Of a stretch of DNA of 45,485 nt, positions 3 to 43,673 are shown in pieces. The position numbers were made by a program, and so were the translations under genes. Below the pieces are notes generated by a model. The model ran no database searches. It was given only the letters and a program-made list of their open reading frames with translations, and was not told the origin of the DNA. Positions within the stretch are counted from its first letter, which is position 1. Every line of letters starts with the position of its first letter. Source of the DNA: Myxococcales bacterium. Lineage in GTDB: Bacteria > Myxococcota_A > UBA9042. The DNA lies in the NCBI GenBank assembly GCA_009692465.1, contig SHZD01000019.1, positions 1 through 45,485 of the forward strand, written 5' to 3'.

Positions 3-90
3 GAGTAAGTCATTCTGGGACTGGGAGTAAGTCATTCTGGGACTGGGAGTAAGTCATTCTGGGACTGGGAGTAAGTCATTCTGGGACTGG
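3..90. repeat. Tandem repeat, 4 copies of a 22-bp unit GAGTAAGTCATTCTGGGACTGG
   Basis: Read directly: identical units at 3-24, 25-46, 47-68, 69-90; may continue upstream of the window. Confidence 0.97.
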
Positions 91-172
91 TTCCGTTTGC
101 TGGCTTGGTTGGTCGCTAAGCTCGCGTCCTGAAAGGCCGACTCGCCGCTCCCGTGTTGCCGAGATCGATCGA
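69..172 (+). repeat. Partial copy 1 of dispersed structured repeat (AAGTC-loop element)
   Basis: AAGTCATTC...TTCCGTTTGCTGGCTTGGTTGGTCGCTAAGCTCGCG...GCCGACTCGCCGCTCC...GAGATCGATCGAG aligns with the cores of the copies at 10563-10706, 18347-18487 and 43530-43673; the right end is missing or displaced. Confidence 0.75.
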
Positions 173-408
173 GCCACCCGAGGACAGCCCCCAGAGGACG
201 CCCACCCCCAAACGCCTGCTGCGCGTAACCCGTCGATGAGTTCGCTGGACTCATCGACCCCGCCATGCTTTGTTGTCGGCCCTCTTCCTCCTTGCGACGC
301 ACTACAAGTGCGCCTCAGTCGTCAGAGCGCCTCCGCCTCGCCTTGCGGGCGCCTGTTTCCGCTCGCTTCGGCAATGAATGTAAACACCCTCTTAGATTTG
401 CCTAGGCC

Positions 409-10562: not shown

Positions 10563-10706
10563 ACTAAGGGCGTGTAAAAGAATAACTCGATCGATCTGCG
10601 AAAAGAACGGAGCAGCGAGTCGGCTGTAAAGACGCGAGCTTGCGACCCACGCAGCAAGCAAACGGGCACGGTAAATGAATGACTTATTCATTTACGAGCC
10701 CTAAGC
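10563..10706 (-). repeat. Copy 2 of dispersed structured repeat (AAGTC-loop element)
   Basis: Inverted CTAAGGG/CCCTAAG ends; perfect hairpin GTAAATGAAT-GACTT-ATTCATTTAC at 10671-10695; core homologous to copies 1, 3 and 4. Confidence 0.92.
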
Positions 10707-11981
10707 GTTGGAGTGTTGAGTCGCGGCGTTAGCAGCGCCGGAGGGCAGGGCGCCAGCCGTAATTAGGGCCTCGAGGACTTGCGCCTCCGTCAGCGTGGAG
10801 TCGGCCACTTTGGCGCGGCCTAAAATAGCTTGAATTCGGGATTCGGTCGGTTCGAGATCGTGATCCAGCAACCACATTTCGACATTGGCCTTGCCACTGT
10901 AAAAACCGATGTCGATCATCTGCTTACAGCCGACTTCATGAGCGGGAACGGAGCTGTATACCGTGTCGGCAAGATCGCGCCGCCCGATCTTGATGGCCTT
11001 GGCGATAGCCGCAGCGTGCACGCCCGTCGCCGTGCGAAAGGCATCGGTGCCAAATGCAGGATAATTATACGGAATCGGCACGCCATAGTACCGCGAGACT
11101 GTTTGGACGTACTGCCGCAGGCCAGACAGTGAATGATCCCAGACCTTGAGCAGCCTCAAATTCAACAGGATTTGGTCAATTGACGCATTGCCGACGCGCT
11201 CACCAACGCCCAAACAGGTGCCGTGAACGCGATCAAACCCCAGCTCGAGCGCCGTCAGGCACAGCGGGACTGCTAGACCGCGGTCATTGTGCCCATGCCA
11301 ATCGAGCGCAACTTGAGCGCCAGTCTCGGCGACGACACCTCGGGTAAATTCCAACAAGTTGGCCAAACCATCGGGCGTAGCGTGGCCAACGGTGTCGCAT
11401 AGAATTAGCCGGGTCGCCCCGTGGTCGATGGCGGCCTTAAACAACGTGCGCAGAGTATCCGGATGCGCGCGAGTGGTGTCTTCAGTGACAAAACTAAACG
11501 GCAGTTGATTGTGGATGCTCAAGTCCGCCGCCGCGACGACCAGCTTGGTCATGTGGTCGACGTCCCAGTTTTCGACCAATTGGCGCACCTGCGAACTTCC
11601 CAAGAACGCGCACACTTCAATCTCGACGCCAGTCTTGTGGGCGATGTTGGCAATAGCAGTGATATCAGCTGGATGCGTGCGCGCTGCGCAATTGGGCACG
11701 ATCCGCATGTGCTGGTCGCGGATCTCTTCGACCAAACGGGTCACATCAGCTACGGCCAGCGCACCCGCCCCTGGCAAGCCCACATCGAGAACGTCGATCG
11801 CCAACGCTTCCATACAATGCAGGATTTCGAGCTTTTGGCCGATGGGCGGATTGGTAATCGAGGGCGACTGAATCCCATCGCGCAAGGTCTCGTCGACCAA
11901 GGCAAACCCCGGGCGAATCGGCGGTTTGTCGCGCTTGAGTTCGTTCCAGTCGTAAATAACATCTGAATTGGTCGCTGACAT
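10701..11981 (-). CDS. 2-isopropylmalate/homocitrate synthase-family (DRE-TIM/HMGL-like) enzyme
   Basis: LVDETLRDGIQSP motif, LCDTVGHATPDG, DWHGHNDRGLA, GVGERVGNASID; substrate not resolvable from sequence alone. Confidence 0.85.
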   Translation of the reverse strand: MSATNSDVIYDWNELKRDKPPIRPGFALVDETLRDGIQSPSITNPPIGQKLEILHCMEALAIDVLDVGLPGAGALAVADVTRLVEEIRDQHMRIVPNCAARTHPADITAIANIAHKTGVEIEVCAFLGSSQVRQLVENWDVDHMTKLVVAAADLSIHNQLPFSFVTEDTTRAHPDTLRTLFKAAIDHGATRLILCDTVGHATPDGLANLLEFTRGVVAETGAQVALDWHGHNDRGLAVPLCLTALELGFDRVHGTCLGVGERVGNASIDQILLNLRLLKVWDHSLSGLRQYVQTVSRYYGVPIPYNYPAFGTDAFRTATGVHAAAIAKAIKIGRRDLADTVYSSVPAHEVGCKQMIDIGFYSGKANVEMWLLDHDLEPTESRIQAILGRAKVADSTLTEAQVLEALITAGALPSGAANAATQHSNA

Positions 11982-12320
11982 GGCTACCTCGGTCGGCGTA
12001 GACCTGCTGGCCACTGCCCCAAAATAGGAGCGTTGGCCGTTACCAGTGCGATTCGCGGCTGTCCACGTCGCCACGGGCCCACGGTCAGAATACCACGAAC
12101 GCACTACGACTACAGCCTAAGCAACTTGCGCCGCCGTGGACGCTTCTGACACTGCTCGGAGTTGGCCAACAGACCACACCACTTTGAAAGCGTTGAATAC
12201 CGCGCATGTCTGCAGGAGCGATTTGACACCGGGGCGGCCGCTGCGCAAACTCGCAAAGGGCATCCTATCGGACCCAGATGGTCCGGAATAAGAGCGTCAG
12301 GGTCACCCATCCGGAGCATT

Positions 12321-18346: not shown

Positions 18347-18487
18347 ACTAAGGGTCCGTGCAAAATCAAGTCGATTTTGCACCCCGGCCCATTGCATGCT
18401 TGGTGGGTCGCTAACTCCCAGCTTTGCAAGCCGACTCGCCGCTCCGTTCCACACGCAGATCGAGTTATTCTTGCACGCGCCCTAAGA
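18347..18487 (+). repeat. Copy 3 of dispersed structured repeat (AAGTC-loop element)
   Basis: Ends CTAAGGG/CCCTAAG; perfect hairpin GTGCAAAATC-AAGTC-GATTTTGCAC at 18358-18382; core homologous to the other copies. Confidence 0.93.
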
Positions 18488-42552: not shown

Positions 42553-43551
42553 TTGAGCGTTGCTACGACCATGGCCTTGACCACCGCCCTGCGCCCTCAT
42601 CGAATTCGCCGCCTGCATTGGCAGACGCTGATTAAGGCTGTCGAATTTGCCCAGTTGTCGTTGGACGACCCTCAGGTGCTAGTGGCTGCCAGTCGCTTTT
42701 TTCGGCGCAAGGTGGCTAGCGGGCGCGATATCGAAAGCCTGCTCGTCGCTAGCGACAGCGAAGTCCACTTTATTCCGTGGGTGCTTTGGGACGCTGAGAT
42801 TGGCCGCAGTGGAGGCTTGGGCAAAGTGCTGGTGTCCAAGGCCCGCCACAAAGAAACCCGAGAGATCTTGCGAGCTCTAGTGGCTTGCCGGCCCGAAGTG
42901 TGGCGCATTGACGCCGTAGTGGGCGAACGGGCCAGCTTGCGCAGGTTGCGCGACGATGCTGTCGCCACCCTCGCGGATCCTATTTTGAGTTGCGGTGTCG
43001 CCGTTGGCGAGCTGTTGGTGGCAAGAATCGCTGACTTGGGCGACGTGCAGATTTTGGACGCGGTCCACGAAGCATTGCCGGGACGGCATGAACCAGCCAT
43101 GCGCCGAGCTGCCAAGCGCATCGCCAAATTGCCTGCTGAAGCGCAACTGCTGCACTTGCGGCGCGCTGCGTTCTTTTGCGTGACTTGCCCAGATCCCGTT
43201 GACAATCGCCGCACTCGCCTGCCACGGACGGTGGTCACTTCGTTGGTATTTTCCGTAGCTAACGTGGACTCATTGCTGGCTGGGCTGCAACGATGCGCTG
43301 TCGGCGGCCTTGTGCAGGCCATCAGTCCAGAGCATTACCGCTTCACTCAAGCGTCGACTGACCTCACGGGCTGTGAACTAGCGCTGCGGCGGGGCCGGTT
43401 GCGCGCCACCATCGCCGATGCTGCTCAGTGCGGCAAATTGCGCGCCTTTGTCGAAGAACAGTTTGCGAACGCCGTTGCCTACGCCGTTACGGTGCATGAA
43501 CGCAAGGCGCGTATCGTCAGCGCCGTTGCGTTAGGAACTGTGACAATTTAA
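42553..43551 (+). CDS. Hypothetical protein, unknown function
   Basis: 332-aa ORF with TTG start; C-terminal codons lie inside repeat copy 4. Confidence 0.65.
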   Translation: MSVATTMALTTALRPHRIRRLHWQTLIKAVEFAQLSLDDPQVLVAASRFFRRKVASGRDIESLLVASDSEVHFIPWVLWDAEIGRSGGLGKVLVSKARHKETREILRALVACRPEVWRIDAVVGERASLRRLRDDAVATLADPILSCGVAVGELLVARIADLGDVQILDAVHEALPGRHEPAMRRAAKRIAKLPAEAQLLHLRRAAFFCVTCPDPVDNRRTRLPRTVVTSLVFSVANVDSLLAGLQRCAVGGLVQAISPEHYRFTQASTDLTGCELALRRGRLRATIADAAQCGKLRAFVEEQFANAVAYAVTVHERKARIVSAVALGTVTI

Positions 43552-43673
43552 GTCGATCGATTTGATTCTTGCCGGAGCGGCGTGTCGACTTGCAAAGTCG
43601 CGAGCTTGCGACCCACCTAGCAAGCAAATGGAACCCTGTGACAGAACAACTTGTTCTGTCACAGTTCCTTAGG
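43530..43673 (-). repeat. Copy 4 of dispersed structured repeat (AAGTC-loop element)
   Basis: Inverted AGGAACTGTGACA ends; perfect 12-bp hairpin CTGTGACAGAAC-AACTT-GTTCTGTCACAG at 43636-43664; core homologous to the other copies. Confidence 0.93.

Follow-up and report, generated by a model that had tools for sequence, protein, structure and literature searches.

Bacterial MITEs such as Nezha, RUP, NEMIS and ERIC are short, non-coding elements with terminal inverted repeats (TIRs) and target duplications (TSDs), present in many copies and mostly intergenic. Elements of the IS1031-like subgroup of the IS5 family use TNA targets, and IS630-type MITEs a TA target in CTAG. Two further groups of small palindromic repeats have been described. 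REPs are extragenic hairpins located mostly between tandem or convergent genes and rarely between divergent ones (PMC3733652), and the PATEs of Haloquadratum carry a near-terminal palindrome and no transposase, have neither TIRs nor duplications, and are derivatives of elements of the IS605 type (PMC3119063). The repeat described here was found in a 45,485-nt window, the whole stretch of DNA analysed, from an uncultured freshwater myxobacterial relative (genome of 5.82 Mb in 294 contigs). It is likewise short, non-coding and multicopy, has TIRs and duplicates its target on insertion; the best reading is that of a MITE with REP-like placement and an inside-out pattern of conservation. Unlike in the described bacterial MITEs, one end is a full TIR palindrome, the core is conserved while the TIRs are replaced, and the same core occurs with both TWA- and TA-duplicating ends. 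The 3-bp TWA duplication is shared with IS5/IS1031-like elements. The TA-flanked forms resemble IS630-type MITEs but share their core and left palindrome with the TWA elements. A PATE or other IS605-type element is ruled out by the TIRs and TSDs.

The window contains three full copies, as the first-pass annotation had reported, and one further degenerate copy (Table 1). The sequence quoted there for the minus strand at 43530-43673 was confirmed, and the element is real, its body being slightly narrower than that interval and flanked by TAA TSDs. Read on the minus strand, it consists of TAA, GGAACTGTGACAGAAC-AAGTT-GTTCTGTCACAGGGTTCC, ATTTGCTTGCTA, GGTGGGTCGCAAGCTCGCG-ACTTTGCAAGT-CGACACGCCGCTCCG, followed by GCAAGAATCAAAT, CGATCGACTT-AAATTGTCACAGTTCC and TAA; the hairpin loop is AAGTY in most subfamilies. 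The three full copies have perfectly paired stems, GTAAATGAAT, GTGCAAAATC and CTGTGACAGAAC, and far ends that match these stems, as claimed. The single-strand DNA fold of the feature has z = -4.9 and shuffled windows contain 0.03 core matches on average, which, together with pairing above that of shuffled copies (see below), excludes chance as the source of the repeat. At its very start, the contig consists of half-hairpin units of subfamily C in tandem, fused to the degenerate copy. A second, TWA-flanked repeat with ends GAGGGTGTTTA often abuts MITE copies; besides the window, it is found at the right flanks of copies in loci L033, L169, L174 and L195.

Table 1. Window positions of the subfamily A element and its parts, of the other copies and of adjoining features
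Feature	Position	Strand	Remark
MITE body, subfamily A	43534..43668	-	135 bp
TSD, left (hairpin side)	43669..43671	-	TAA
TSD, right	43531..43533	-	TAA
Left TIR, hairpin 5' arm	43653..43668	-	GGAACTGTGACAGAAC
Hairpin loop	43648..43652	-	AAGTT
Hairpin 3' arm	43630..43647	-	inverted copy of the left TIR
Conserved core	43573..43617	-	45 nt, GGTGGGTCGCAAGCTCGCG(hairpin)CGACACGCCGCTCCG
Small core hairpin	43586..43600	-	CGACTT-TGC-AAGTCG; variable, mostly paired
Right TIR	43534..43549	-	'tracking' distal terminus of the first-pass annotation
MITE, subfamily B	10568..10701	-	TSD TTA
HMGL-like gene	10701..12104	-	TAG stop completed by the first G of the subfamily B copy
MITE, subfamily D	18352..18482	+	TSD TAA
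ORF, 3361 aa	18495..28580		ATG 12 bp beyond the right end of the subfamily D copy
Degenerate C-like MITE	61..191	+	left hairpin runs into tandemly repeated half-hairpin units
Tandem repeat at contig start	1..90		units GAGTAAGTCATTCTGGGACTGG
Second repeat	371..392		ends GAGGGTGTTTA

The own genome contains 32 full-length near-identical copies, with divergent ones besides. All 30 inspected copies of subfamily A have a body of identical length (135 bp) and are 96-99% identical. A search of the own genome and its relatives with a covariance model based on 18 diverse copies recovered at least 150 copies each in the own genome, G002 and G004, and 18-38 copies in five other genomes. The density in the own genome, taken away from targeted copies, is approximately 1 per 10 kb, corresponding to about 570 copies, and that of the window alone corresponds to about 510. 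Thus, far from having few further copies, the repeat is dispersed, as first proposed, with an overall estimate of about 500-570. At least six subfamilies with TWA duplication (type 1) exist in the own genome, named by their left ends: A (GGAACTGTGACAGAAC), B (GGGCTCGTAAATGAAT), C (GGAACTGTCCCAGAAT), D (GGGCCCGTGCAAAATC), E (GGACCTGTGACAGAAC) and F (GGGCACCAACAAAATC); GGAACTGTGACA is an example of a TIR of this TWA-duplicating type. In each subfamily, the terminal sequence occurs three times, as the left TIR, as the inverted 3' arm and, less exactly, as the inverted right end, and the left and right TIR types are concordant in 94 of 97 classifiable copies. The distal terminus that had been noticed to track the stem is therefore the right TIR. 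Locus L003 contains, at 1461-1503, a lone subfamily C left-end palindrome of about 39 bp that has TAA on both sides; since a TIR lies at each end, it is possibly a mini-element that moved alone.

The family has a narrow range. An exact core pattern matched 40 stretches, in only five MAGs among 85,462 species genomes, labelled Myxococcales, Deltaproteobacteria or Proteobacteria, and none in IMG/VR. In a DNA search of relatives, the repeat was present in five of five genomes of the same genus and in two of 16 other genomes of the family, with none in genomes more distant than the family. Comparison with plasmids and phages by blastn gave no match, Rfam scans gave no credible match and none above the gathering score, and no published description of the family was found in the openly licensed literature.

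Exact 3-bp direct repeats flank 29 of the 30 subfamily A copies, 27 of them being TWA (TTA or TAA), one TCA and one CAA; the exception, in L013, has flanks GAA/TAA, one base off. Across all subfamilies and species, exact 3-bp duplications were found in 93 of 181 copies, versus 2-6 of 185 at shifted offsets. No exact duplication is present in roughly half of the copies overall, most of which are diverged; many of these differ by one base, as expected for older insertions. In L170, a subfamily B copy interrupts a repeat of type 3 (see below): the intact relative of this repeat in L013 reads GTTCGGCGTTAATTGGTCGGG, the interrupted one GGCGTTAA-[B]-TAATTGG, with TAA duplicated, so that an empty site and the duplication are seen within one genome. 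Constant length and exact duplications are the mark of a cut-and-paste element. With the many copies and the nested insertion, they firmly establish the mobility and the anatomy of the repeat, which the first-pass annotation had offered as one of several readings.

The covarying hairpin was examined in two alignments. In one of 70 distinct copies from relatives, fitted to the structure, the proportion of paired cells is 89.8% (64.2% after shuffling, 32-55% with slid partners) and the covariation score 0.589 (0.195 and 0.08-0.14, respectively). All 16 pairs of the hairpin change on both sides in this alignment, as do three of the five pairs of the small core hairpin. In a structure-free MAFFT alignment of 79 copies, the top six column pairs are hairpin pairs of one register. 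Single base pairs in this alignment are not significant under a tree-based null, and we relied on stem-level tests: the whole hairpin stem scores 251, against a null maximum of 65.6 in 60 simulations, and the small core hairpin is marginal, with 73 over six pairs (above the null maximum) and a score inside the null over four pairs. The stem is thus replaceable yet paired, as was noticed in the window, and consists of the subfamily-specific TIR and its own inverted copy. Covariation alone does not prove structural selection, which had been suggested from the same pattern. The hairpin mismatches comprise 35 G.T and 28 A.C, giving no clear sign of selection on the RNA of one strand. Moreover, in B' copies, found at three sites (L198, L201, L203), the 5' arm has changed from GGGCTCG to GGGCACGG, the exact complement of the 3' arm, and the right TIR is largely still B-like. 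Such a multi-base change fits template switching between the arms, a documented way of keeping stems paired that has been proposed for RNA stems at large (PMC8794818), and template switching is likely to operate on the arms in general. It is possible, if somewhat doubtful, that pairing of the arms is purely mutational, by quasipalindrome template switching in a functionless hairpin, and that the core is kept by recombination between copies. The B' variant speaks for this explanation, as does the existence of chimeric copies. The evidence from the core goes against it.

Per column, 3.5-4.9 changes are inferred for the flanks of the core, 8.8 for its loop, 11-16 for the hairpin and TIRs and 19.9 for the adjacent spacer; the rate of change in the core is about one-fifth of that in this spacer (p = 8e-8), a constraint that may be inflated because the copies were mostly collected with a model leaning on the core. 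For this reason the search was repeated with the left TIR of subfamilies A-D only, the core being unused. Hairpin and core were found in 93 of 103 matches and the core with a diverged hairpin in three more; the remaining matches are mostly right ends, reversed hairpins, interrupted copies and one copy with a mutated core. This result argues against collection bias as the cause of the constraint. Since the spacer adjoining the core is not homogenised, recombination alone fails to explain the conservation of the core, and a hairpin kept in nearly every copy detected by its TIR does not look functionless. A role of the core in cis is likely.

The same core and left-palindrome plan recurs in elements with other ends, TACTCGATCGCC- or GAGAGCCGATC-like. 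Type 2 has ends TACTCGATCGCC...GTGTA (in G004, TACAGGATCGC...CTGTA), and type 3 GAGAGCCGATCAAAT...GTCGGGTCTC. Both have TA at their flanks, often as C-TA-G; flanks of 2 bp are less secure than the TWA duplications. A profile of three type-2 copies has a match to a type-1 copy (5e-11) that spans the core and the right subterminal region. Chimeras combine a C left with a type-3 right end (L170, 3060-3196), an A left with a C-like right end (L033) and a B left with a D right end (L177, 2900-3034), indicating that recombination inside the shared core is one route of end exchange. We tentatively suggest that hairpin and core form a parasitic module under its own constraint, which may have acquired new ends repeatedly, including between IS5-type (TWA) and IS630-type (TA) ones, so that a single lineage would hitch-hike on unrelated transposases.

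Placement is strongly biased. Genes were predicted with a home-made codon-usage script, and by these gene calls, on which all placement counts rest, 125 of 126 copies are intergenic, even though coding sequence offers 2235 unoccupied TWA sites, compared with 330 in short intergenic gaps. Next to the hairpin end is the 3' end of a gene in 91 cases and the 5' end in 22; for the right end the counts are 49 and 51, respectively. Copies located between tandem genes are in sense orientation 42 times and in antisense orientation 13 times (p = 1e-4). Convergent and divergent locations number 34 and 3 for the copies, against 58 and 76 for free TWA sites (p = 5e-8). The orientation bias is the same whether the rest of the locus runs along or against the flanking genes (15:3 and 14:4), hence orientation follows local transcription. 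Some 22 copies are placed exactly at a stop codon. This distribution resembles that of REPs, in agreement with the REP-like character first proposed. Element orientation also shows a weak negative correlation with local GC skew (p = 0.02, own-genome loci of at least 5 kb).

Orientation along the neighbouring transcript, proximity of the hairpin to gene 3' ends, avoidance of divergent promoter regions and covarying helices would all be expected if hairpin and core were a structured RNA selected by the host, such as a 3'-UTR stabiliser, a terminator or a processing site, and spread by transposition. We judge this unlikely: G.T mismatches are not clearly favoured, terminator and sigma-70 promoter signals in the copies are at the level of shuffled sequences, Rfam has no counterpart, and purging of hairpins from 5' leaders would alone give an equal bias. 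Such purging is the simplest cause of the placement, and the copies may in addition have an active role at 3' ends.

Judged by the type of duplication and the transposase families present, the partner is likely to be an IS5-type transposase. IS5-type genes (DUF4096 and DDE_Tnp_1) are present in relatives, and locus L240 of G019 contains an IS5-type element with matching 16-bp ends GAGGGTGTTTACATTG and TTA duplications. At the same locus, the TIR GAGGGTGTTTA, the end of the second repeat mentioned above, is found in an IS5-type element. No autonomous element with exactly the TIRs of the MITE was found in the regions searched, and a TIR-pair search of the loci around copies returned only MITE-MITE pairs. 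IS630-type DDE_3 genes occur in G001, G002, G004 and G019 and are absent from G000. As to other candidates, the own genome has DDE_Tnp_1 genes that seem to be either unrelated or broken, DDE_Tnp_4 (the PIF/Harbinger-type domain) is absent from that genome, and ISAzo13 is represented by a fragment in one relative. In relative G002 (L235, 544-1846), an IS5-type transposase gene is flanked by two inverted MITE copies; each has its own duplication (TAA and TTA), and they look like separate insertions rather than a composite transposon. A tandem repeat (GTGTCGTGTGGTCGGGACA, about 19 bp) disrupts the IS5-like transposase gene in L091 (840-960). Movement by a Y1 (RAYT) transposase, as for REP, REPIN or BIME elements, would accord with the high copy number, the extragenic hairpin and the gene context (PMC3733652), and Y1_Tnp matches exist in all eight genomes, weakly in the own one. 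It is nevertheless highly improbable, given the 3-bp duplications and TIRs and the absence of a MITE copy from all eight Y1 loci (0/8); for the same reasons the repeat is not a REP proper. Least probable is the switch-like RNA first envisaged, a riboswitch-like alternation of the 5' arm between the hairpin and the far end, since the 59% complementarity of the far end to the 5' arm in register, peaking in register 0, is what two TIRs are, and this long-range pairing, modelled separately, scores 61, inside the null.

We consider it very probable that the repeat is a MITE family mobilised in trans by transposases of the DDE class, IS5-type ones being the most likely, with hairpin, core and placement arising as follows. 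The transposases would cut and paste the non-autonomous elements into TWA targets, the TIR of each subfamily presumably being the recognition site of its own transposase. The left TIR, followed by its own inverted copy, would form the hairpin, whose arms are probably kept matched by DNA-level template switching and by selection on the TIR; turnover of the TIR with matched arms would then make the stem appear to covary. The 45-nt core between hairpin and right TIR would act as a conserved cis module in practically every copy, also in elements that have TA duplication and unrelated ends. Copies would persist where they do little harm or are useful as 3'-end sequence, that is, in intergenic locations, often at stop codons and with the hairpin towards the 3' end of the upstream gene.

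Usual MITEs are defined by their ends and have disposable interiors; here the interior is conserved and the ends change, apparently across two kinds of target duplication. The family also carries a warning, in that textbook stem covariation across many copies can stem from transposon ends. It offers a natural system in which to study how non-autonomous elements change transposases, whether template switching, and not RNA-level selection, can maintain covarying stems, and by what route ordinary cut-and-paste elements come to be placed at gene 3' ends in the manner of REPs.
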